Shown here: one piece after another, positions 34,547 through 47,549 of the stretch
Numbering within the stretch: position 1 is the stretch's first letter
Layout of the letters: the number at the start of each line of letters is the position of its first letter
DNA from: Pseudomonadota bacterium
GTDB taxonomy: Bacteria > Pseudomonadota > Gammaproteobacteria > Burkholderiales > SG8-39
NCBI GenBank assembly: GCA_021811085.1
Contig: JAJZPQ010000004.1
Coordinates: forward strand, 1-64,000
DNA length: 64,000 nt
Reading direction: 5' to 3'
Made by a program: the position numbers and the translations under genes
The notes under the pieces: model-generated
Databases searched by the model: none
Seen by the model: the letters and a program-made list of their open reading frames with translations, nothing else
Told to the model about the DNA's origin: nothing

Positions 34547-35239
34547 TCAGCATTCCGGTTGCGATGCCTCTTCATCGAGCAGTAAGACTAATAGCAACGT
34601 GACCGCTGCCCGGATGAAATCGTGCGAAGTCGCTCCCAGTACGTCTGAAGCAAAGCGCGGCACCCATTGCGACATATGGCCACGCACGAAGCCGGCGCGT
34701 CGTCCACACGATGCCTGAGCCGTATCGTCGTCGCCGCTGGCCTGTGCCAAGGCGATTGCCCGCTCGAGAAAGTACACAAAATCGAGCTCCAGACCGAGAT
34801 GGTCGTCGGGAATACGCACATCACTTCGGCGTGCAACCCCCGCGTCGACATACCGCCGGCGAACAGCGAGCGTCTCTTCGGTCATAACGAGGCGGCTCGG
34901 CGACAGGTAGAACGACGCGTACGGTACCGCAGGCGTCTGCGCGGGGCCCACGATCAGTCGGGTAAACTCAACCGCCAACTCACTCATCCATGGCTCGCCT
35001 GCGTCGATACCGGCCTCGGTTGCGACCCGCAGTGCATCGACTGCGTTCGCGAGCGCGGGAGTTCCGCCGGGCGCCTCTGCCGCAGTCAGCGCCAATCCGA
35101 GCACCTCGTCGCTGGGGCCGAAAAGAAACAGGCGCCGCAACAGATCGATGGCGAGAAGCGGCCGCGACCTGACCACCTGATCCGCCGCAGCCGCCGGCAA
35201 CCATCCTTCCGTCGCCCTGTCTTGCGTTGCCAGGCTCAT
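34547..35239 (-). CDS. TorD family molybdoenzyme chaperone
   Basis: 230 aa, helical. The TorD features are EFTRLIVGPAQTPAVPYASFYL and IPDDHLGLELDFVYFLERA. Its ATG overlaps the TGA of the molybdoenzyme gene (ATGA), so it is translationally coupled and presumably serves that subunit. It is clearly different from the TorD at 25776, so each catalytic subunit has its own chaperone. Confidence 0.85.
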   Translation of the reverse strand: MSLATQDRATEGWLPAAAADQVVRSRPLLAIDLLRRLFLFGPSDEVLGLALTAAEAPGGTPALANAVDALRVATEAGIDAGEPWMSELAVEFTRLIVGPAQTPAVPYASFYLSPSRLVMTEETLAVRRRYVDAGVARRSDVRIPDDHLGLELDFVYFLERAIALAQASGDDDTAQASCGRRAGFVRGHMSQWVPRFASDVLGATSHDFIRAAVTLLLVLLLDEEASQPEC

Positions 35240-38088
35240 GCCTTCCTGACCGCCACAATCATGTCGGCAAACGCGGGGAAGCCCATGATCGGACTCAAGG
35301 CCGTCGGATCGACCATTTCGTTGTGCAACGGCGTGTAGCTGCGGCTTTGATACGCCGGCCCCAACCCGGGGCTGAAGCGGCCACCGGTGCCGAACCCCAT
35401 CTTGATGACGCCGGGCCGCATGCCGCCCGAGGCGAACACCTTGCCACGGGTGGAACGGTTCAACGGATTCGTGACAACCACCAGGTCACCCGTCTTCAAA
35501 CCGAGGCGTTTCGCATCCCCATTGTTCATCCAGACAGTGCCGACCGAGTAGCTGTTCGCCTTGATTTTCTTCTTGACGGCTTTGATCGGCTCGCGGCCCA
35601 CCGCTTGTCCTTCGGGCAGCTCACATTCGAACGCGTTGTTGAGCGGCTGCCACGTACCTTCGGTCTTGAGCTCCCCGAGCCAAGGCACCATCTGTGTTCC
35701 GCTCATCGCATGGTGCACCTTGCCGCAGATCAGCTGGAACGGATAGTCCTTGCCGTACTTGGCGTACTCCGGATTCGTGTGTGGATTCCAAACCGTCTCG
35801 AACCAGAAGAAGGTCGGCGGATATTTCTTGAAGCCAACCCGCTTCAGTCCTTCGGGCGACTCGTTATTGGCTTTCTCGATTTTCTCGTTGTACGACCGAT
35901 AGCCACCGAAACGCTTGCCGCCCTCGGTCCAGTCGAATTTAAATTCGATTCGGTGCGTCGACGTTGGAGGGAAGACGCCGTTCGGTTCGTCCGCGTTCGA
36001 TTTCTTGTAGCGGTACCAGCTCATCGGCCACACCGCCACGCCCTTGTTCGCGCGCAGCCATTCGACCGTGACCGGCTTGCCGATAATGCGCTTCTTCGCG
36101 TCGTCGATCGTGACGTCGCCCTTTTCCAGCGATTCCGGGTTGCCGATGATGGTGTAGCCCTCGGGGTACTTGGGATAGGGCAGCGGCGTGCCAATGTTGG
36201 CTTTGCCTGGCGCGGGCGCCAGCATCTCGTTGACGAAGTCCTCTTCGGTCCGGTACTTCTGCCAGAAGTCCGCTCCCTTTAGATCGGTATCGCCGAGATC
36301 CGCCAGACGCTTCGCGAGCAGGTTCATGATCTCGATCGGCTTCTTCGATTCGTATAGGGGCTCGATGACCGCGTCCCGGTTGTAGATCAATGGGTGCGAC
36401 GGGTAGATGTCGGCAACGCTTTGTCGCTCGGCGTAGCTCGCCTCCGGCAGGATCACGTCGGCGTACAGCGCGCTTTCAAGATACAAGGTGTCGATGACGA
36501 CCATCAACTCGAGCTTGTGATTGCCCGCTGCATCCTTGGCCGCGAGCGCCTTCTGCCAGGCATACGGCGCCGATCCGGTGTAGACCGAATTGCCAGTGCG
36601 CAGAACGTATCCCTTCATCGGATAGCGATGGCCTCTGAATGGGCCGTAGCGGATTTCGACGCCATTCTCGATCACGTCAGGATAGTCGGCTACCACGTCA
36701 TCCCAGGCCGCCGGGAACTTGCTCCCGAACGCGTCCATGTGCAGGTGCTCGACTTCACCCTCGACCTCCTTGCCGGCTAGCCTGCGCACCACCTTCCGTT
36801 TCTTGAACTGCTTGCCGGTGGCGCTGCCGCCCTTGTCCGATTTCACGAGCTCGGTGTCGATCACGCCTCCGGGCGCTTCGAAGTTGCCGGTGATCACGTT
36901 GAGCGCCACGCCGATGATCGAGGCGCAGTAGCCGTTAAAGTGGTGCCCGGGCGACTGCATTCCCCAGACCAGCGCGGCCGGCTTGGTGATGCCAAACAGG
37001 TGCGCGACTTCCTGGATCTGCGCCTTGGTCAATCCGGTGCGTCCGGCAGCCCAGTCGAGGCTGAAATACGGCAGGCCATTGATCGGATCGTTCTTCGTCC
37101 ACCACGATTTGAACGCCGCCTCGAACTCGTCCCAGCCGACCGAATATTTCTTGAAGTTCCAGTCGATGTATTTGTGCGCCGGATCGCTCTGATTGTCGTT
37201 CTCCAGGATGTATCGGAGCATCGCGCCAAACAGGTCGCCGTCGGTGCCCGCGCGCGGCGCGAGCCACATGTCGGCCTTGGCGGCGGTATTGCTGAGCGCC
37301 GGATCGACGACGATGACCTTGCAACCCGATTCCTGCTGCGCCGCCACCGTGCCGCGGCTCTCATACGCGATCCGCGTGGCGACAAACGGGTTCCAGCCGT
37401 TGTAGACGATGAGCTTGGTGCGATAGGTCCAGTCGTGCTTCAGGCTGCCGTCCGCTTGGCGCACGAGCTGCGGCCGCATCAGGTCCGGCTCCCAGCGTTT
37501 GCCGTTGACCATCAGCTTCGGGCCATGGCGCCGCGGCGTATCGCAAATCGCGCCGTGCTCGACGCAGTTCGGCGTGCCATAGGCGAAGAACAGCCGGTGG
37601 TAGTGATCTCGGTCGGTCACGTCGCCGGCGTCCATCACCACGGACTCGGCGCCATATTTCTTCTTGATGTCGGTGAGTTTCCGGGCGATTAGGTCGATTG
37701 CCTCGTCCCAGCTCGCCTGGCGGAACTTGCCTTCGCCGCGCTCGCCGACTCGGATGAGTGGGTGTTTCAGGCGATACGGCGAGTAGATCAGCTGCTGCCC
37801 CGATGCGCCCTTGGCGCAGCAGGCGCCGTCGTTCATCGGCACTGCCTTGTTGCCGTAGATCTTGGCGAGGCGACCGTTCTGCACCCACATTTCCATGCCG
37901 CATTCGGCCGGACACATGACGTCGGCCGTATACCGTACTTGATACGTTCCCATTCCGAGCTGCACGGCCTTCGCCTCGGACGCGGTCAACGTATTGAGCG
38001 CAAGCAGGCCGCTGCCTTGGAGCGCCGTGGCGCTCGCGGCGTAACCCGCCGACTTCAAGAATTCCCTACGCGAAACTTTTATGTCCAT
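35236..38088 (-). CDS. Tat-exported molybdopterin oxidoreductase (CISM), system 2
   Basis: 950 aa. The Tat signal is SRREFLKSAG. The iron-sulfur region reads DVMCPAECGME and later GACCAKGASG, so the first ligand position of the usual CxxCxxxC is Asp. bis-MGD-binding domains follow, with GAICDTPRRHG near the probable Mo ligand. The length and the region around SYAERQS suggest a PsrA/PhsA-type or related enzyme, but the substrate is unknown. A strong GGAGG site precedes the ATG. It has a ferredoxin subunit upstream and TorD downstream, with no membrane anchor gene. Confidence 0.88.
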   Translation of the reverse strand: MDIKVSRREFLKSAGYAASATALQGSGLLALNTLTASEAKAVQLGMGTYQVRYTADVMCPAECGMEMWVQNGRLAKIYGNKAVPMNDGACCAKGASGQQLIYSPYRLKHPLIRVGERGEGKFRQASWDEAIDLIARKLTDIKKKYGAESVVMDAGDVTDRDHYHRLFFAYGTPNCVEHGAICDTPRRHGPKLMVNGKRWEPDLMRPQLVRQADGSLKHDWTYRTKLIVYNGWNPFVATRIAYESRGTVAAQQESGCKVIVVDPALSNTAAKADMWLAPRAGTDGDLFGAMLRYILENDNQSDPAHKYIDWNFKKYSVGWDEFEAAFKSWWTKNDPINGLPYFSLDWAAGRTGLTKAQIQEVAHLFGITKPAALVWGMQSPGHHFNGYCASIIGVALNVITGNFEAPGGVIDTELVKSDKGGSATGKQFKKRKVVRRLAGKEVEGEVEHLHMDAFGSKFPAAWDDVVADYPDVIENGVEIRYGPFRGHRYPMKGYVLRTGNSVYTGSAPYAWQKALAAKDAAGNHKLELMVVIDTLYLESALYADVILPEASYAERQSVADIYPSHPLIYNRDAVIEPLYESKKPIEIMNLLAKRLADLGDTDLKGADFWQKYRTEEDFVNEMLAPAPGKANIGTPLPYPKYPEGYTIIGNPESLEKGDVTIDDAKKRIIGKPVTVEWLRANKGVAVWPMSWYRYKKSNADEPNGVFPPTSTHRIEFKFDWTEGGKRFGGYRSYNEKIEKANNESPEGLKRVGFKKYPPTFFWFETVWNPHTNPEYAKYGKDYPFQLICGKVHHAMSGTQMVPWLGELKTEGTWQPLNNAFECELPEGQAVGREPIKAVKKKIKANSYSVGTVWMNNGDAKRLGLKTGDLVVVTNPLNRSTRGKVFASGGMRPGVIKMGFGTGGRFSPGLGPAYQSRSYTPLHNEMVDPTALSPIMGFPAFADMIVAVRKA

Positions 38089-38147
38089 GATAAAACCTCC
38101 AAACCGCTTGTCTCGATGATAAATTCGTCAGAGTCCCGATGGCCTGG

Positions 38148-38816
38148 TCAGCTTGGATTCAAACTTCCGTCGGCGGCGTCAAACACCTTTTTGTCCGGTG
38201 CGATGTAGTACACCCGCGGCTTGGTTCCGAACTCGGGATGGCGGACATCGGGCTTTTCTGATGCCACCAGTTTCGAGATGCGACTGTTCGGATCGGCCAG
38301 ATCGCCGAACACAATCGCTTTGCCGAAGCAGTTCCGGGCACACGCCGTCTCTTCCTGCCCGGCCTCGAGCCGCGCGCTGCAGAAATCGCACTTGTCGACG
38401 ACGCGGAGATTTTTGACCGGCGTCTTGGCGAGCTCAGGTACATCCTTCACATACGGCTTCGGATTGTTCTTGATCGGCAGATACTCGTGCAGGTAGCGGG
38501 CGCCGTACGGGCAGGCCGGAACGCATCGGGCGCAACCGATGCAGAGGTCGCGGTTGACCAAGACGGCGCCGTCCTCCCCCTTGTAGGTCGCCCCCTTGAC
38601 CGGGCAGGCCTGGATGCACGGCGCGTCGTCACAGTGGTTGCAGAACTTCGGCAGGAAATAACGTTTGGCCGCCGGATAATCGCCGTCGTCCTGGATCTCG
38701 ACGCGCGAGCGAAAACCGCCTATAGGCACACCATTTTCCATCTTGCAGCCAACCTGACAGGATGTGCAGCCGATACACCGGCGCAAGTCAATCAGCATTC
38801 CGTATTGCTTTGCCAT
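38148..38816 (-). CDS. 4Fe-4S dicluster electron-transfer subunit of molybdoenzyme 2
   Basis: 222 aa, DmsB-like. Cluster motifs are CIGCTSCQVGC, CNHCDDAPCIQACP, CIGCARCVPACPYG and CDFCSARLEAG with CARNC. A GGAGG ribosome site precedes the ATG. It is the first gene of the unit ferredoxin subunit, catalytic subunit, TorD, and lies about 70 bp downstream of a perfect FNR/ANR box. Confidence 0.9.
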   Translation of the reverse strand: MAKQYGMLIDLRRCIGCTSCQVGCKMENGVPIGGFRSRVEIQDDGDYPAAKRYFLPKFCNHCDDAPCIQACPVKGATYKGEDGAVLVNRDLCIGCARCVPACPYGARYLHEYLPIKNNPKPYVKDVPELAKTPVKNLRVVDKCDFCSARLEAGQEETACARNCFGKAIVFGDLADPNSRISKLVASEKPDVRHPEFGTKPRVYYIAPDKKVFDAADGSLNPS

Positions 38817-38884: not shown

Positions 38885-38898
38885 TTGATGTAGATCAA
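38885..38898. promoter_or_regulatory. FNR/ANR-type box
   Basis: TTGATGTAGATCAA is a perfect match to TTGAT-N4-ATCAA. Its centre lies about 75 bp before the ATG of the ferredoxin subunit gene, suitable for class II activation with a leader of about 34 nt. It implies that molybdoenzyme system 2 is induced under low oxygen. Confidence 0.75.
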
Positions 38899-39027: not shown

Positions 39028-40179
39028 CTATCGGGTGCCCTGCACTACATGTATGACATGATCCGACGAACGCAGCGCGGCCTTATCGCCCGCTACAAGC
39101 CGCAAAGCAAAAGCAATCTGCGCCCGCTTGCCGACCCCCAGCTTGCGCATGATCTTGCGCAGATGATTGCGCACGGTATGAAAGCTCAGATCCAGCATGA
39201 AAGCGATGCGCTTGTCGGCCAGCCCCTGAGCCACGAGCGTCAGCACCTCCGCTTCGCGAGCCGTGAGCGCGGCGCGCAGCTTAGCGGGAAAGGCGTCTGC
39301 TGCTTCACGCTGGGACAAGCGCGGCTGTTGATCCACACGCAACGCGGAGGCTGTAAGCGCGTGCAGCAAACCGATTCGTGCGGCGTCATGCGTACCCCCC
39401 AACAGCAGCAGCAACCAGCCCGGACGGGGACTGGCAGGCAGCACGTATAGGGCGTGCGGGCCCGGTTGCGCCCGCAGACGCAAGGTGAAAGGTGAGGTGT
39501 TGTCGGGCAATTCGCGACGCGCCGCCTGTGCCGCGGCGACGATCTGCTCATGCTTCGCCCCCTTGGGCAGTCGTCCCACCGACAGCAGTAGCTCGGTCGT
39601 TGCATCATCATGCTCGGCGAGCCAGCCGATCCATTTCGGACCCACCAGCGGGCGTATCCATTGATCGGATAGCAAGCGCAGCCAAGCTGTACGGTCGGCA
39701 TGCTGGGCGCGCAGCTGTGACAACAAGCTGTCCAGCGCGAACTGGCTTGCGGGTTCCGGCAGCGGGGTCAGCGGATCAAGATGAACGAGATAGGCCCGCG
39801 TACCTCCGCTCAGACCGATGGGTTCGACACGCGTCAGCACCACCAGCGGCGATTCATGCGGTCGCGGTATCAAAGCCAGCGCAGGCTCGGAAATATCGTC
39901 CGCGCCCGATACGAAGTCCAGGCAGCAGCCCTGCGCCTCGCCACAGCTTGTCACGCGCGTGCAAGCCAACGGTCCCAGCGCACGAGCGCTCTTGCCCAAC
40001 AATTGTGCCAGGGAGGCCGATAATGCCAGCACCGAGCGGTCCGGTGCCACCAGCATCAGCAACCCCGGCCAGCCGGCCACCAACCGCGACAGGATCTCTG
40101 TTTCCGGCAGCGCTCCCGCCGAAGGCGTGGCGCTGGCGTCCGGCGTGAACGCGGAAAATCTGGTCTCGGTCATGGTCAC
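39028..40179 (-). CDS. LuxR family transcriptional regulator
   Basis: 383 aa. The C-terminal GerE-type helix-turn-helix begins at LTAREAEVLTLVAQGLADK and includes FHTVRNHLRKIMRKLGV. The first 300 residues hold a PAS-like sensory region with several cysteines (VTSCGEAQGCCLDF) that might bind metal or a redox signal. There is no response-regulator receiver domain. It lies directly upstream of molybdoenzyme system 2 on the same strand and may regulate it; that link is inferred. Confidence 0.85.
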   Translation of the reverse strand: MTMTETRFSAFTPDASATPSAGALPETEILSRLVAGWPGLLMLVAPDRSVLALSASLAQLLGKSARALGPLACTRVTSCGEAQGCCLDFVSGADDISEPALALIPRPHESPLVVLTRVEPIGLSGGTRAYLVHLDPLTPLPEPASQFALDSLLSQLRAQHADRTAWLRLLSDQWIRPLVGPKWIGWLAEHDDATTELLLSVGRLPKGAKHEQIVAAAQAARRELPDNTSPFTLRLRAQPGPHALYVLPASPRPGWLLLLLGGTHDAARIGLLHALTASALRVDQQPRLSQREAADAFPAKLRAALTAREAEVLTLVAQGLADKRIAFMLDLSFHTVRNHLRKIMRKLGVGKRAQIAFALRLVAGDKAALRSSDHVIHVVQGTR

Positions 40180-40451: not shown

Positions 40452-40895
40452 TCAAGGCCGGATCGACACTTTCTTATCTGCAGACTTGCGACTCTCACTT
40501 TCCGTCACCAGCGCCAAGTCCTGCAGGATACCGCAGCCACGCACTTGCATTGACGGGTGACAGTCGACGCGCAGTGCTTTTAGCTGTCGCTCGAGCTTCG
40601 CGAGGTCGCGCCGCTGCTCGCGCACCTTTCTAATGTGCTCGTCGAGCAGCGCGTCTACCTCGCCGCAGTAGGCACCCGGCGCCTCGGCCAGCTTGAGCAG
40701 CGGCTGTATCTCCTTCAGGCTGATGCCAAGCGACCGGCACTGGCGAATGAAGCCCAGCCGCTTGGTCGCCTCCCCGCCGTAGCTCCGGTAGTTGGACTCA
40801 GACCGCGCCGGGTTCTCCAACAGTCCCTGTCGCTCGTAGTAGCGGATAGTCTCCACCGAGACTCCCACCTGCTCCGCCAGTTCACCGATACGCAT
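40452..40895 (-). CDS. MerR family regulator, CadR/PbrR-like
   Basis: About 147 aa. The N-terminal MerR helix-turn-helix reads MRIGELAEQVGVSVETIRYYERQGLL. Metal-site cysteines are in AYCGEVDALLDEHI (usual Cys79 region) and CHPSMQVRGCGIL, the arrangement of Cd/Pb/Zn-responsive CadR/PbrR proteins. The start at 40895 is chosen because the longer option overlaps the operator. It is divergent from the MtrA-like gene, whose promoter has a MerR-type 19-bp spacer. Confidence 0.85.
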   Translation of the reverse strand: MRIGELAEQVGVSVETIRYYERQGLLENPARSESNYRSYGGEATKRLGFIRQCRSLGISLKEIQPLLKLAEAPGAYCGEVDALLDEHIRKVREQRRDLAKLERQLKALRVDCHPSMQVRGCGILQDLALVTESESRKSADKKVSIRP

Positions 40896-40899
40896 GGGC

Positions 40900-40930
40900 T
40901 TGACCCTCAAGTCACTTCAGGGTTTCTAAT
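40900..40930 (+). promoter_or_regulatory. MerR-type promoter/operator of the MtrA-like gene
   Basis: TTGACC (40900-40905) and TCTAAT (40925-40930) are separated by 19 bp, the over-long spacer typical of MerR-activated promoters. Within it lies the dyad ACCCT...AGGGT (40903-40923) with near-symmetric inner arms. The promoter points toward the MtrA-like gene. Confidence 0.7.
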
Positions 40931-40955
40931 ATGCCAGACCCGAGCAAACAGCAGC

Positions 40956-40969
40956 TTGATGTGGATCAA
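40956..40969. promoter_or_regulatory. FNR/ANR-type box
   Basis: TTGATGTGGATCAA fits TTGAT-N4-ATCAA perfectly. It lies 26 bp downstream of the MerR-type -10 element and 38 bp before the likely ATG. That placement suits repression, or activation of a second promoter with a very short leader. Confidence 0.6.
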
Positions 40970-41006
40970 AGTCACCGACGACAAAGGAGAGCGGCCGAGC
41001 TTGCCG

Positions 41007-42200
41007 ATGAAATCAGCAATGGAACAAATCAGGACTGTCGCACCCCGCGCCGACGCGCTTCGCGTCGTACGCGACGCGTTCGAGCAAGCTGCCGCCGCCA
41101 CCAAATGCCATGGCTGCGGTTGCCTGCTGCATGCAATCGAGGCATTGGAGCAAGCCGCTCACGGAGTATCGAAACTGACGCCGGTTCTCGACAGCGCGCG
41201 TCGCGTGCTGACACCGAAGAAGTATGACTGCCTCGGCTGTGAGATATGTTATCCGGCAATTGCCAGCAACGCGTTCGCTGAGGCGTTTCCGGATGCGATG
41301 CCCGAAGGCGCGATGTGTCCAACCGAGGCGCCGGAGGAGCGCCACGGCTGGCCGCCCCTACCCGGCGAATATTCTGTCGTCCGTTACGCGGCGTCCGTCG
41401 CAGTTTGCACACTAAACAGCGAGCATCTTGCTGCGGAACTCGCGAAATGCGCAGCGGAAGGACTGGCCATCGTGGGCACCATGCACACCGAAAACCTGGG
41501 CATAGAGCGCGTCATTCGCAATGTCCTTGCCAACCCGAACATTCGATTTCTCGTTCTGTGCGGCGAGGATACCCGTCAGCTGATCGGCCATTTGCCGGGA
41601 CAGTCGATGGAAAGCCTTTTCGCCAGCGGCCTCGACGAAAAGAACCGCATCGTCGGCGCGAAGGGCAAACGCCCCTTCTTGAAGAACGTTTTGCCCGAGC
41701 AAATCCAGGCCTTCAGGGAACAGGTGCAGCTCGTTTCGATAATTGGGGAGCAGGATCTCGCCACCGTAACGCGGCAAATTGTCGACCGCCACTCGGAGGG
41801 CTTGCCGCCGTTCTCCGGCACGCTATGCAACTTTGCGGTTGAAACGGTTCATGCCACGGAGCCCCAGTTCTACAAATCGGACCCCGCCGGTTTCTTCGTC
41901 GTGTACCCTGACGTCCGAACGAAACAACTGGTGGTCGAGCACTACACCAATGCCGGTGTGCTGAATTGCGTCGTCGAAGGGCTCACGAGCACAGCCGTCT
42001 ATGCAGAAATCGTGAAGCGGGAGTTGGTCAGCCAGCTTGATCATGCCGCGTACCTGGGACGCGAGCTCGCGACTGCGGAACGTTGCCTGCGGACGAGAGA
42101 TCCCTACATTCAGGACAAGGCACCCGGCGCGCCGATGCCGGTGAAGGGGCCGATTAAGGCGGATAATTGTGACGCGGGTTGCGCATCCTGTATGACTTGA
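41007..42200 (+). CDS. Cys-rich protein with MtrA-like (tetrahydromethanopterin S-methyltransferase subunit A) domain
   Basis: 397 aa, soluble, without signal peptide. An N-terminal region carries CHGCGC (residues 34-39) and CLGCEIC (75-81). The central part matches the MtrA/DUF4346 family: SVVRYAASVAVCTLNSE, MHTENLGIERVIRNVL, LCGEDTRQLIGHLPGQS and NRIVGAKGKRPFLKN. The C-terminus has CDAGCASC. Archaeal MtrA binds a corrinoid through a histidine and passes a methyl group; the GHLPG histidine is a candidate. The ATG at 41007 has AAAGGAGA 16 bases upstream; TTG 41001 and ATG 41019 are alternatives. Its bacterial role is unknown; metal (MerR) and oxygen (FNR) sites precede it. Confidence 0.75.
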   Translation: MKSAMEQIRTVAPRADALRVVRDAFEQAAAATKCHGCGCLLHAIEALEQAAHGVSKLTPVLDSARRVLTPKKYDCLGCEICYPAIASNAFAEAFPDAMPEGAMCPTEAPEERHGWPPLPGEYSVVRYAASVAVCTLNSEHLAAELAKCAAEGLAIVGTMHTENLGIERVIRNVLANPNIRFLVLCGEDTRQLIGHLPGQSMESLFASGLDEKNRIVGAKGKRPFLKNVLPEQIQAFREQVQLVSIIGEQDLATVTRQIVDRHSEGLPPFSGTLCNFAVETVHATEPQFYKSDPAGFFVVYPDVRTKQLVVEHYTNAGVLNCVVEGLTSTAVYAEIVKRELVSQLDHAAYLGRELATAERCLRTRDPYIQDKAPGAPMPVKGPIKADNCDAGCASCMT

Positions 42201-42309: not shown

Positions 42310-42537
42310 ATGTGGACGTATGGACCGTGGGGTGGGTTTCCCTGGATGTGGATATTTCCGCTGCTCTTTCTCGTAGTGATGGTGCTGTTCTTGTTTCGGG
42401 GGGCGGGCTGGCCTATGTGCGGCGGCCATGGAATGCACAAGCGAGAAGAAAGCGCGCGGGAAATTCTTGACCGACGCTACGCTCGCGGGGAAACCAGCCG
42501 CGCGGACTATCAGCAGATGAAAAAAGATCTCGAATAA
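42310..42537 (+). CDS. SHOCT domain small membrane protein
   Basis: 75 aa. One membrane helix follows a Trp/Pro/Gly-rich start (WTYGPWGGFPW). The C-terminal SHOCT motif is AREILDRRYARGETSRADYQQM. The AGGAGG ribosome site at the 42295 region is strong. Two related proteins lie at 49191 and 51532; all three sit beside metal-stress genes. Function unknown. Confidence 0.8.
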   Translation: MWTYGPWGGFPWMWIFPLLFLVVMVLFLFRGAGWPMCGGHGMHKREESAREILDRRYARGETSRADYQQMKKDLE

Positions 42538-42555: not shown

Positions 42556-43191
42556 ATGACGCTTCAAGACCGCTTGTTTCCGGCCACGATCATGCCTGAC
42601 CAGGACTGGTGGCACGCCTTGTGGCCCGATCCCGATGGCGTCGTCAAGGCCCTGCACATCGAATCCGGGATGACGGTTGTCGACTTGGGTTGCGGAGATG
42701 GCTATTTCACCGCCGCCATCGCGCGGCGGATCGGTCCCGGCCGCGTCATCGGATTCGACCTCGATCCGGCGATGCTGGAGCAAGCAAAAGCGTACTGCAG
42801 TGGAATGGCGAACTGCGACTGGCTGCTCGGCGATGCAATGGAGCTAAGCCGTCTAATCGGTGCGCCGGCCGACTATGTCCTGATCGCGAATACCTTCCAC
42901 GGCGTGCCGGGCAAGACGGCATTGGCGCGCGCGATCGCCGCCGTTCTCCGGCCCGGCGGTCGCTTCGCCATCGTCAATTGGCATCCGATTGCGCGTGAAC
43001 AGACACCGGTTTTGGGCCAGCCCCGAGGTCCGCGCACCGAGCTGCGCATGTCCACCGAGCAGACCCAGGCAGTAATTGAACCTGCCGGCTTCGGGCTGGA
43101 AGCGCTAGTCGAGTTGCCGCCCTATCACTACGGCGCAATTTTCCGCAAGCTGTCAGCAACTGAAATGAGTGCGGAGGTCAAGCGCGGCTGA
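42556..43191 (+). CDS. class I SAM-dependent methyltransferase
   Basis: 211 aa. Motif I reads VVDLGCGDGYFTAAIARR, the acidic end of strand two is GFDLDPAMLEQ, and VLRPGGRFAIVNWHP marks the post-motif region. It begins 18 bp after the SHOCT gene, so both are probably cotranscribed. It resembles the general UbiE/ArsM-like fold but lacks a recognisable ArsM cysteine set. Substrate unknown. Confidence 0.85.
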   Translation: MTLQDRLFPATIMPDQDWWHALWPDPDGVVKALHIESGMTVVDLGCGDGYFTAAIARRIGPGRVIGFDLDPAMLEQAKAYCSGMANCDWLLGDAMELSRLIGAPADYVLIANTFHGVPGKTALARAIAAVLRPGGRFAIVNWHPIAREQTPVLGQPRGPRTELRMSTEQTQAVIEPAGFGLEALVELPPYHYGAIFRKLSATEMSAEVKRG

Positions 43192-44014: not shown

Positions 44015-44197
44015 TAGGGTAGCGTCTAGCACTGTTGCGTCTAGCACTTCCTGGTCAGCAGCCGAATTCATGCCGGCCAATAGGCGGACTCAGGTTGCTC
44101 GATGGGTCGGATGCAATGACGCAAGCCAAGCGACTTCGGCGCTTCGCCGAAACGCGGAAAAACGATCAACACCTCTCCATGATTGCTCTTGCATTTT

Positions 44198-44217
44198 ATT
44201 GTCATGTGTATGATAAT
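44198..44217. promoter_or_regulatory. candidate ArsR/SmtB operator
   Basis: ATTGTCATGTGTATGATAAT is a 20-bp imperfect dyad (one mismatch in eight pairs), flanked by perfect outer arms TTGCATT/AATGCAA (44189-44195, 44215-44221). It lies 6 bp before the ATG of the ArsR gene, as expected for autorepression of the ArsR-PAP2-ATPase operon. Confidence 0.6.
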
Positions 44218-44223
44218 GCAACT

Positions 44224-44664
44224 ATGCACTTAGTAGCTGTGAAACCAGAAGACGTCTTCCAGGCGCTCGGCGACCCCACACGCATTCGCGTCGTGCGGCT
44301 GCTGGTAAGCACGGGAGAGGAATCCTGTATGTGCGAACTGGTCGATAGTCTTCTTGAACCGCATTACAAGCTCTCGCGCCATGTGAAAAGCCTGCGGCAA
44401 GCCGGGCTGCTGTCGATGGAGAAGAGTGGCCGTTGGGTTTATCACCGCCTAGTGAACGACGTACCCTACCTGCTCCATCTCTATGAGATGGTGCGTGCGC
44501 TCCCCGACAGGGAACGCGTGTTCGCGCGGGACTTGCAGCGCTTCAAGGCGCGCCTGTGTCTCAGAGAAGGCGGGCGCTGCCGGCTGGGCATCCAAGCCCC
44601 CGAGTTTGCGATGGGACAAAACGTAACGAAAAGCAGGAAAACACACGATGACCCAGTGTTGTGA
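44224..44664 (+). CDS. ArsR/SmtB family metalloregulator
   Basis: About 146 aa. Winged-helix domain: VFQALGDPTRIRVVRLL, then ESCMCELVDSLLEPHYKLSRHVKSLRQAG. The CMCEL segment resembles the metal-binding CxC helix of As/Cd-type ArsR proteins. The C-terminal region adds RLCLREGGRC, possibly a second metal site. The start at 44224 follows the operator dyad; longer options read through it. It heads an operon with PAP2 and P1B ATPase genes. Confidence 0.85.
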   Translation: MHLVAVKPEDVFQALGDPTRIRVVRLLVSTGEESCMCELVDSLLEPHYKLSRHVKSLRQAGLLSMEKSGRWVYHRLVNDVPYLLHLYEMVRALPDRERVFARDLQRFKARLCLREGGRCRLGIQAPEFAMGQNVTKSRKTHDDPVL

Positions 44665-44773: not shown

Positions 44774-45426
44774 TGAATATCTGGTACGGTTGGGACGGGC
44801 TTAACGTTTGGCTCTTTGAGCTCGCGCAGCAAGCCCGCTCGCCTGCGCTCGACCCGGCCCTGGTCCTGGTCTCGGTCTTCGGTTCGTTCTGGCTCGCGCC
44901 GTACTATGGGCGCGTCATCGGCGCGCAGGCGTTGCGCATCGTGCGCTGCCCGGACCGGCACACAATCGTGGGCTGTCAATTGGTGCGCGGGTGGGAAGCC
45001 GTGTTCTTCCGCTATCTGCTGGCAACCGCTGTGGCTGCAGCACTCGTGTGGGTGCTCAAGACCGCCTTTGACTTGCCGCGGCCGTGGGAGTTGTATGGCC
45101 CCGGCATCGGCCAAGCTCCGCTACCGGTCAACTCCGAGGGGAGCTTTCCGAGTGGTCATGCGGCCTTTGCCGCGGTCCTCGTCGGCAGTCTCTGGCCGCG
45201 CTTCAACGGGCGCGCGGCGCGGGCCATGTTGGTGCTGTTGCTGGTGTGCGTCGGACTTTCGCGGGTGTTGATCGGCGCGCACTTTCCGGCCGATGTGGTC
45301 GCAGGTTATAGCGTCGGGCTGGCGAGCGTTTGGATTTCGGACAGGCTGTTGAAGCGAGCCGAAAGGGCTTGGACGGAACGGGTAACGAATGGGCACGAAG
45401 AGCCGAATGGGAGTGCAAAAGGATGA
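44764..45426 (+). CDS. PAP2 family phosphatase, membrane protein
   Basis: 220 aa with about six helices. The three PAP2 motifs are KTAFDLPRP, PSGHAAFA and SRVLIGAHFPADVVAG. Family members dephosphorylate lipid phosphates such as undecaprenyl pyrophosphate at the membrane. Its TGA overlaps the ATG of the P1B ATPase gene (ATGA), an unusual coupling. Confidence 0.85.
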   Translation: MATLNIWYGWDGLNVWLFELAQQARSPALDPALVLVSVFGSFWLAPYYGRVIGAQALRIVRCPDRHTIVGCQLVRGWEAVFFRYLLATAVAAALVWVLKTAFDLPRPWELYGPGIGQAPLPVNSEGSFPSGHAAFAAVLVGSLWPRFNGRAARAMLVLLLVCVGLSRVLIGAHFPADVVAGYSVGLASVWISDRLLKRAERAWTERVTNGHEEPNGSAKG

Positions 45427-47549
45427 CGACAAAGCAGCTTGAATTGCGGGTAGCGAATCTCGATTGCGAGCACGACGCCGCCGCCATCGAGCGTGGCGTC
45501 CGGGGACAGGGGGGCGTCGTCAACCTGAAGGTCTATCCCAAGTCGGCCAAGGTTGCCCTCACCTACGATCCGGCGCTGACCAAGCCCGAGACGCTCAAGC
45601 ACCGCCTGAAGGATCTCGGCTTTGCGCCCCTCGATGCGCAGGAGATGGCGGCACCGCCCGCGCTTTGGCGCAACCCTAAGGTACTCACCTCTGTCTTGTC
45701 AGGAGTGCTGCTGGTCGCCGGATGGCTGATTGGGCTCTTCGGCGCGCCCGAAGCGGTCCCGATCGGCTTCTACGTGGCCGCGATCCTTGTCGGCGGCTAC
45801 TTTTTCGGGCGTGAAGCGATCGAGGAGTTGGTCTTCGAGCGCGAGATCGGAATTGAGCTGCTCATGAGCGTGGCGGCGATCGTCGCGGCGGTCATGGGAC
45901 AGCCCGGCGAGGGCGCGGCACTCGTATTCCTTTATTCGATCAGCGAGGCCGCGGAAGGCTATACCGAGGAAAAGACGCGCGCCGCGATCAAGGCGTTGAT
46001 GAAGCTTGTGCCGAAGGTCGCGCTGGTGCGGCGCGGCGGATCGGAGCGGGAAATCCCGGTCGAAGACCTTGCCGTGGGCGAAGTTTTCATCGTCAAGCCC
46101 GGTCAGGCCATCGCGACCGACGGCGTCGTGCTGACGGGCGCCTCCAGCGTCAACCAGGCGCCGGTGACCGGCGAGAGCGTGCCGGTTGAAAAGCATCCCG
46201 GCGAAACGCTCTTCGCGGGGAGCATCAACGGCGAAGGCGCACTCGAAGCTCGGGCGACCAAGACGTTCGCCGAGAACACCATCGCCCGCATCATTCACAT
46301 GGTCGAGGAGGCGCAGGAGAAAAAGGGTAAGAGCCAGCGCTTCATCGAGCGGTTCGGGGCCGTTTACAGCCCGCTCGTGCTGCTCGTCGGCATCCTGATC
46401 GCCGTCGTGCCGCCGATTCTTCTCGGTATGGAGTGGGCGACGTGGATCGCGCGCGCCACCGTGTTTATAGTCGCCGCCGCCCCGTGCGCGCTCGTCATTT
46501 CGATTCCGATCACGCTCGTCGCTTCCCTGGGCACCGGTGCGCGGAACGGCGTGCTGATCAAGGGCGGCATCTACGTCGAGGAGTTGGCGAAGATCAGGGT
46601 CGTCGCGCTGGACAAGACCGGTACCCTGACGCGGGGCGAGCCGGATGTCACCGATGTCATCGTCTGCGCAGGCAAAACGGGCGATCCGATCGGCTCCCAA
46701 CAGGAGGTGCTGGCGCTCGCCGCCGGGGTGGAAGAGCGTAGCGAGCATCCGCTGGCGCGCGCCATCGCGCGTCATGCCCGAGCGCAGGCAGTGACTCCGG
46801 TGAAGGCGGATCAGTTCCGCGCGCTCACCGGCGCCGGCGCCTCGGCGCAGGTTGCGGGCGCAACCCTGTACGTCGGCAGCCCGGACCTGTTCGAATCGCG
46901 CCTCGGCGTCGGTCTCGATGGCGTTCGGGGCGACATCGAGCGAATGCAAAGCGAAGGCAAGACGGTCATCGTCGTCGGTGATGAACGGGGTCCTCGCGGC
47001 ATCATCGGGATCCGCGACAACATCCGGCCGAATGCGCGCAAGGCGATCGATGCGCTTCACGCCGTCGGTGTGCAGAAGGTGGTGATGCTGACCGGCGACA
47101 ATGATCGAACTGCGCGGGCAATCGCGCTGGAACTGGGCATCGACGAGATCTACGCCAGCCTGAAGCCGGAGGACAAGGTCGCCAAAGTGCGCGAACTTGC
47201 GCAGCGCTACGGGCATGTCGCGATGGTGGGTGACGGCGTGAACGATGCGCCCGCGCTTGCCGAGGCCACGGTCGGCGTGGCGATGGGCGCGGCGGGTACG
47301 GACGTCGCCCTGGAGACCGCCGACGTTGCGCTGATGGCGGACGATCTGGAGAAGCTCGCCTACGCGCTTCGCCTCGCGCAGCGCAACCGCTCGGTGGTGA
47401 ACCAGAATCTGGCGCTGTCGGTAGTGGTCATCGGTGTTCTGGTGGTCGGTGCCGTCACCGGCGCGTTCTCGCTGCCGGTCGCAGTCATAGGGCATGAACT
47501 GAGTGAGTTTGTTGTGATTGGGAGCGCGCTACGCATGCTCAGAGCATGA
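45423..47549 (+). CDS. heavy-metal translocating P-type ATPase (P1B), APC variant
   Basis: 708 aa. A degenerate N-terminal HMA-like domain has RVANLDCEHDAA with a single cysteine in place of CxxC. It has TGES (PVTGESVPVEKH), the phosphorylation motif LDKTGTLTRGEPD and hinge VGDGVNDAPALAEA. The metal-site helix reads AAAPCALVISIP, that is APC rather than the CPC of CadA/ZntA, and the last helix pair carries AVIGHELSEFVVIGS. The specificity is therefore uncertain; export of a divalent metal is likely given the ArsR regulator. Confidence 0.88.
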   Translation: MTTKQLELRVANLDCEHDAAAIERGVRGQGGVVNLKVYPKSAKVALTYDPALTKPETLKHRLKDLGFAPLDAQEMAAPPALWRNPKVLTSVLSGVLLVAGWLIGLFGAPEAVPIGFYVAAILVGGYFFGREAIEELVFEREIGIELLMSVAAIVAAVMGQPGEGAALVFLYSISEAAEGYTEEKTRAAIKALMKLVPKVALVRRGGSEREIPVEDLAVGEVFIVKPGQAIATDGVVLTGASSVNQAPVTGESVPVEKHPGETLFAGSINGEGALEARATKTFAENTIARIIHMVEEAQEKKGKSQRFIERFGAVYSPLVLLVGILIAVVPPILLGMEWATWIARATVFIVAAAPCALVISIPITLVASLGTGARNGVLIKGGIYVEELAKIRVVALDKTGTLTRGEPDVTDVIVCAGKTGDPIGSQQEVLALAAGVEERSEHPLARAIARHARAQAVTPVKADQFRALTGAGASAQVAGATLYVGSPDLFESRLGVGLDGVRGDIERMQSEGKTVIVVGDERGPRGIIGIRDNIRPNARKAIDALHAVGVQKVVMLTGDNDRTARAIALELGIDEIYASLKPEDKVAKVRELAQRYGHVAMVGDGVNDAPALAEATVGVAMGAAGTDVALETADVALMADDLEKLAYALRLAQRNRSVVNQNLALSVVVIGVLVVGAVTGAFSLPVAVIGHELSEFVVIGSALRMLRA

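Follow-up and report, generated by a model that had tools for sequence, protein, structure and literature searches.

Herein, we describe a 397-residue protein encoded in the window, the whole 64,000-nucleotide stretch of DNA that was analyzed, as a putative soft-metal-induced corrinoid protein that would most likely transfer methyl groups between cobalt and a thiol-bound metal or metalloid. We give this reading a probability of roughly 0.45. The protein is a good candidate for the B12-based chemical alteration of toxic metals because its cobalamin-contacting residues are kept, it carries a cysteine-rich domain, and metal or antimony sensors neighbor the gene in its relatives.

Gene and Domain Architecture

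The corrinoid protein gene and its downstream neighbors are located as follows.

41007 to 42200, plus strand: gene of an MtrA-like, cysteine-rich predicted corrinoid protein of 397 aa (ORF, Pfam, NCBIfam)
41007 to 41330, plus strand: N-terminal cysteine domain (CxxCxC, CxxCxxC, C; residues 34-104)
41340 to 41786, plus strand: MtrA-type corrinoid domain (residues 112-260; axial-ligand candidate H195)
41880 to 42116, plus strand: DUF4346 domain, "PterinBD-DUF4346" (residues 292-370; Pfam)
42168 to 42191, plus strand: C-terminal cysteine tail CxxxCxxC (residues 388-395)
42310 to 42537, plus strand: downstream gene of a small membrane protein of 75 aa whose C-terminal segment resembles SHOCT (E = 6.8e-5, under the gathering score)
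42556 to 43191, plus strand: downstream gene of a SAM-dependent methyltransferase, of a family also found near the corrinoid gene in the relatives L035, L037, and L041

The original prediction had described two N-terminal cysteine clusters and a C-terminal CxxxCxxC, and the reading frame and cysteine positions agreed with this description (residues 34, 37, and 39; 75, 78, and 81; 104; and 388, 392, and 395 in the tail). The gene starts at the ATG or possibly at an in-frame TTG at 41001, since the TTG is better spaced from the AAAGGAG at 40983-40989. Pfam recognized only two domains. The expected MtrA-like domain was recovered on residues 112-260 (PF04208, E = 1.1e-42, 146 bits against a gathering threshold of 25), and the same profile search also found PterinBD-DUF4346 on residues 292-370 (E = 2.9e-22, 79.7 bits against a cut-off of 29.6). 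DUF4346 also makes up the C-terminal portion of TIGR00284, a dihydropteroate synthase-like family.

The NCBIfam model NF002128 (PRK00964.1-6, 390 aa) aligned with residues 16-378 (E = 8e-148) at 492.6 bits, under its equivalog cut-off of 568, and the window protein and this model evidently belong to the same broad family. TIGR01111, the model for the MtrA subunit of the Mtr complex, gave 136.3 bits, under its equivalog cut-off of 249.15. As had been anticipated, the protein has no membrane anchor: no transmembrane segment was found, the highest 19-residue Kyte-Doolittle mean being 1.3. The expectation that other mtr genes would be missing also held for MtrH (PF02007), which had no match anywhere in the protein's own genome. 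The corrinoid protein gene is present there as a single copy. The protein is a member of the MtrA domain family, yet it falls outside the subunits of the Mtr complex by score, membrane helix, and partner subunit. The original prediction had further regarded a metal- and oxygen-regulated corrinoid or methyl-transfer protein outside methanogenesis as new. A bacterial MtrA outside methanogenesis is no novelty by itself, since MtrA homologues have been mentioned in bacteria before (PMC4915002) and the NF002128 model exists.

Predicted Corrinoid Pocket

In MtrA, the axial ligand of cobalamin is His84, supported by Glu54, with further contacts from Thr53, Asn55, Gly57, and Asn64 and with the base sandwiched by Tyr18 and Val61 (PMC4915002). 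Chain alignment placed MtrA T53, E54, N55, G57, N64, and H84 at T161, E162, N163, G165, N172, and H195 of the window protein. All 60 of the aligned members keep these residues, although the constancy of a few of them is partly a selection effect because genomes were scanned for relatives with the peptide patterns [HS]TENLGIE and CxxCxC. H195, Y122, N172, C75, C78, C81, and C104 were not selected for by these patterns, and in the Cys-type members that came from whole-protein searches the same residues were constant as in those from the pattern scan. Y122, the counterpart of MtrA Y18, was present in 56 of the 60 aligned members.

Searches of solved structures with the 397-residue protein returned MtrA as the sole match. 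An AlphaFold2 model, built from a 56-sequence alignment without the Paraburkholderia relative L010, had a mean pLDDT of 85.6. Its residues 110-271 superposed on cobalamin-bound MtrA (5laa) with a Z of 23.1 and an rmsd of 2.0 over 155 residues, and structures other than MtrA stayed below a Z of 10 against the predicted domain. The proposed corrinoid pocket was thus recovered by structure prediction, with H195 as a conserved axial histidine candidate among conserved contacts. On the strength of this fold match to 5laa and the conserved contact residues, the protein very probably binds a corrinoid. B12-binding domains were found in all 17 carrier genomes tested, and a corrinoid adenosyltransferase in 14 of these, including the window's own genome.

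Cysteine Domain and Tail

The seven N-terminal cysteines (CxxCxC, CxxCxxC, C; residues 34-104) were invariant in 58 of 58 Cys-type members. Pfam assigned no family above threshold, and hence no Fe-S family, to any of 32 N-terminal domains. When the N-terminal domain was modeled alone, it was helical with a pLDDT of 85; Foldseek found no match to this model in the PDB, and further comparison gave only a Z of about 3. The missing PDB match of this model is no proof of a new fold. Most relatives end in a short, variable cysteine tail, for example, CGC...C, and the Bacillota member has CGC repeats resembling metallothionein.

Divergent Regulator and Promoter

The region upstream of the corrinoid gene contains the following features.

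40452 to 40895, minus strand: CadR/PbrR-type MerR regulator gene, 147 aa, divergent from the corrinoid gene
40900 to 40930, plus strand: MerR-type promoter, TTGACC (-35), 19-bp spacer, TCTAAT (-10)
40903 to 40923, plus strand: CadR-type operator dyad ACCCTCAAGTCACTTCAGGGT (pattern match)
40956 to 40969, plus strand: perfect FNR-type box TTGATGTGGATCAA, centered at about +25 of the MerR-type promoter

The divergent gene had been called CadR/PbrR-like, and its best NCBIfam model was TIGR02047, CadR-PbrR (1.2e-44, 151.4 bits, just under the cut-off of 151.45). The 147-residue product carries MerR Pfam domains and cysteines 77, 112, and 121. The promoter with its 19-bp spacer and dyad is likewise present as proposed. 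Besides its own reverse strand, ACCCTCAAGTCACTTCAGGGT was the sole match to the CadR-type pattern in the 64 kb, where 0.23 matches would be expected with up to three mismatches. In L010, whose gene is 72% identical, a divergent regulator of the same kind is accompanied by the promoter TTGACC-N19-TTCAAT.

The perfect FNR box named in the original prediction was found, and the window holds two such boxes, against about 0.009 expected by chance. The oxygen control that had been read from it fared less well. With its center near +25 of the MerR-type promoter, the box is poorly positioned for activation, and L010 retains only a degenerate half-site in the corresponding stretch; oxygen control of the corrinoid gene is therefore possible but not supported. 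Activation of the corrinoid gene by FNR was rejected, because the box center at 40962.5 requires a transcription start near 41004 and a -10 element near 40993, and no -10 was seen. Given its position, TTGATGTGGATCAA may as likely serve repression or control of the divergent cadR gene.

The second perfect FNR box, TTGATGTAGATCAA, at 38885-38898, is sensibly placed: about 70 bp separate it from the ferredoxin start in a minus-strand molybdopterin oxidoreductase operon (35236-38816) that lies downstream of it and likely encodes an anaerobic respiratory enzyme under FNR. Between this operon and cadR lies a LuxR-type (GerE) regulator gene (39028-40179, minus strand). On the other side, the region of 44110-44664 and 45330-47549 holds an ArsR gene and, further on, genes of a PAP2 phosphatase and of a P-type ATPase of the Zn/Cd/Pb type. 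This ArsR resembles the one that abuts the corrinoid gene in the relative L070.

Relatives and Their Metal-Sensor Neighbors

The non-redundant relatives of the Cys type that we collected number 61 and span about a dozen phyla, namely, Acidobacteriota, Myxococcota, Pseudomonadota, Planctomycetota, Chloroflexota, Nitrospirota, Thermodesulfobacteriota, Ignavibacteriota, Actinomycetota, Melainabacteria, Lindowbacteria, and Bacillota, named as in the records, many of which are metagenome bins. The distribution is patchy. Among the 369 genomes of the class, six besides the window's own had a match at E < 1e-20, the gene was absent from all 13 congeners searched, and a phylum-wide sample gave a match in 1 other genome of 398.

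A same-strand ArsR/SmtB gene was located within 1.5 kb upstream in 51 of the 61 relatives, and 27 of these genes abut or overlap the start of the corrinoid gene. CadC-like regulators accounted for 26 of the ArsR neighbors, all with the CxxxC...ELCVCD cysteine set; the nearest structure to a representative was 1u2w (CadC, E = 3e-18). Another 22-23 were closest to PDB 6uvu (representative E = 1e-38), which we take to be the Sb(III) repressor AntR, and the DPC-x9-C pair was found in 21 of 23 6uvu-like regulators. The gene tree required several switches of regulator type, with at least seven gains or losses for the CadC label alone (starred branches), and through all of these switches the regulator remained a soft-metal-type sensor. 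Control by a thiophilic-metal regulator, as originally proposed, is supported by the CadR-type gene and operator in the window and, with much more weight than the window alone could give, by the soft-metal-type ArsR genes upstream of these 51 relatives. Judging from these sequences, the corrinoid gene is very likely regulated by soft metals. No single substrate is defined, because the regulators differ (Cd/Pb-type and Sb-type).

Transposase genes accompany the corrinoid gene at several loci. A cassette of cadC-like, HMA, cadA, corrinoid, and ISL3 transposase genes was found in L008, L009, and L080. Over 6.1 kb, it is 99.97% identical between Planococcus plasmids and a Paenibacillus chromosome, which demonstrates recent transfer of a metal island. 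On a gammaproteobacterial contig (L046, 7980-12747), a small gene and a Tn3-family transposase come after the corrinoid gene, and upstream of it lie an SMR pair and MacB/LolD-like genes.

MtrA-DUF4346 proteins that lack the cysteine domain occur in non-methanogenic bacteria (L006, L007, L081, and L083). None of these four loci, two of which are short, showed an ArsR neighbor. Pyrrolysine was considered for L006 and L007 and rejected, the TAG being a plain gene end.

Partner Genes and Candidate Methyl Donors

Partners were counted within 2.5 kb of the 61 genes, using a simple ORF caller and single-linkage clusters. A DsbD_TM/CcdA-like membrane protein was encoded near 23 genes and a Trx-like, single-cysteine anchored protein near 22, with both together at 21. 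Another paired-cysteine membrane protein occurred near 11, a periplasmic protein judged by eye to be OB-fold-like near 9, MerC near 8, and SMR pairs near 4. Three of the 61 have a V4R protein nearby, and three have a SAM methyltransferase from the family encoded downstream in the window. The arrangement of a periplasmic cysteine protein, a paired-cysteine membrane protein or MerC, and a cytosolic cysteine-tailed protein is Mer-like, and it would point to metal processing rather than to plain sequestration. The CcdA- and Trx-like partners could equally serve thiol redox instead.

No conserved methyl-donor enzyme was found next to the corrinoid gene. MtrH was rejected as a conserved methyl donor, as it scored above the cut-off in none of the 17 carrier genomes tested. 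A dihydropteroate synthase-like partner was also rejected, with substantial TIGR00284 relatives in only 3 of the 17. Dihydropteroate synthase-like proteins that end in a DUF4346-like segment were observed in three carrier genomes, including Hyphomicrobium and Methylomonas (L091, L092, and L093).

Proposed Mechanism and Alternatives

We propose that Cd(II)- or Pb(II)-type ions would act on CadR, which would untwist the 19-bp-spaced promoter and turn the gene on, as the regulator family and the operator suggest. The MtrA domain would hold the corrinoid base-off, with H195 as the lower axial ligand and E162 behind it, as indicated by the fold and the invariant residues. The seven-cysteine domain and the cysteine tail would most likely take up thiol-bound metal or hold a cobalt-reducing Fe-S cluster. 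In the relatives, the partners with cysteine motifs (MerC, DsbD_TM/CcdA-like proteins, small membrane proteins, and periplasmic single-cysteine or OB-fold proteins) may lead metal or thiol traffic inward. The destination of this traffic would be the cytosolic corrinoid protein, much as MerP and MerT feed MerA. The most likely reaction would be a corrinoid methyl transfer, in one direction or the other, between cobalt and a thiolate-bound metal or metalloid. An example would be the methylation of Sb, of Cd/Pb-type metals, or of Hg for export or volatilization, for which methyl-tetrahydrofolate, through DUF4346, or SAM are candidate methyl donors. For the family as a whole, we tentatively suggest a horizontally spread corrinoid system in about a dozen phyla that methylates antimony or other soft metals or demethylates organometals, with CadC-, AntR-, or CadR-type sensors and Mer-like cysteine import.

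In a rival explanation, the protein would serve sequestration or delivery: the cysteine domain and tail would buffer soft metals or pass them to efflux pumps, and the corrinoid would be only structural or sensory. The domain and tail are present in nearly all members, the Bacillota member has its metallothionein-like repeats, and P-type ATPases or RND pumps lie close to several of the relatives' loci. However, few parts of the protein are as invariant as the cobalamin contacts, which goes beyond what storage needs, the number of cysteines is modest in most members, and DUF4346 is kept in every full-length member. We regard this explanation as unlikely. Lower still in our estimate is reductive detoxification or corrinoid repair, in which an N-terminal Fe-S cluster and a CcdA/Trx relay would keep cob(I)alamin reduced so that it could reduce metals or shield B12-dependent methionine synthesis from them. 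The CxxCxC and CxxCxxC motifs could hold Fe-S clusters, and DsbD_TM/CcdA-like and Trx-like neighbors occur in more than one-third of loci. This proposal is weakened by the 32 N-terminal domains, none of which reached the Pfam threshold of an Fe-S family, and by the clusters examined, in which no MetH, MetE, or MetF was seen beside the gene.

The transfer could also run the other way, with cob(I)alamin stripping methyl from methylmercury, organolead, or similar compounds and passing it to one-carbon metabolism. Eight loci have MerC, which NCBIfam names an organomercurial transporter, next to the gene, four have SMR pairs, and DUF4346 is shared with a dihydropteroate synthase-like protein. Nevertheless, both main types of regulator look like inorganic-ion sensors, and the conserved neighborhood showed no MerB-like or one-carbon enzyme, which makes dedicated organometal demethylation rather improbable. 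Finally, the protein could carry methyl groups for one-carbon metabolism (methionine or pterin) throughout the cell, in the manner of MtrA, and lie in metal islands by chance. Such a role would suit the NCBIfam naming of the family as an Mtr subunit and the occurrence of MtrA-DUF4346 proteins without the cysteine domain in other settings. The patchy distribution in the class and among congeners and the soft-metal-type regulators beside most loci leave this very unlikely. We favor a soft-metal-induced corrinoid protein in which cobalt and a thiol-bound metal or metalloid would exchange methyl groups.

Significance and Comparison with Known Systems

To our knowledge, HgcA is so far the only case of a corrinoid protein dedicated to toxic metals. 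In mostly openly accessible papers, we found no mention of DUF4346 and no description of an MtrA-like metal system or of a metal link for this family. The genes or enzymes of antimony methylation are still unknown according to a review (PMC8453088). If B12 is used on metals here, this would explain metal(loid) methylation or demethylation without hgcAB, arsM, or merB and would provide the first gene candidate for antimony methylation. It would also set right the public name "tetrahydromethanopterin S-methyltransferase subunit A", which is misleading for non-methanogenic bacteria. With such clear metalloregulators, the function can be tested directly.

The window protein shares with MtrA of the methyl-H4MPT:coenzyme M methyltransferase (5laa, 5l8x) the Rossmann-type domain, the axial histidine (His84/H195), the supporting glutamate (Glu54/E162), and the cobalamin contacts. 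Unlike MtrA, it is bacterial, has no membrane helix and no other Mtr subunits, adds a cysteine domain, DUF4346, and a cysteine tail, and is associated with soft-metal regulators. The name attached to NF002128 implies a methanogenic complex, which the hosts lack.

HgcAB is the nearest concept to the window system, as HgcA and HgcB also combine a corrinoid protein with a cysteine-rich partner. HgcA is marked by a corrinoid domain with a cap-helix cysteine and by a transmembrane part, and its corrinoid domain presumably belongs to a different family from the MtrA domain of the window protein. In contrast to HgcA and HgcB, the window system is one soluble polypeptide, and no hgcB-like gene was noticed beside the corrinoid gene. 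ArsR-like regulators have been reported upstream of hgcAB (PMC7438021).

The regulators are the same as in Cd/Pb resistance by CadC-CadA or CadR, and in Bacillota the corrinoid gene shares one operon with CadA; we know of no cad operon that includes a corrinoid protein. About one-third of the relatives have a regulator like that of 6uvu (AntR). The known ant operon holds a P-type ATPase, whereas the downstream gene here encodes the corrinoid protein. In mercury resistance, MerP and MerT lead mercury to MerA. The relatives resemble this MerP/MerT/MerC to MerA route in their periplasmic cysteine protein, their paired-cysteine membrane protein or MerC, and their cytosolic cysteine-tailed protein, but MerA was not seen here, and the cytosolic protein is instead the predicted corrinoid protein.
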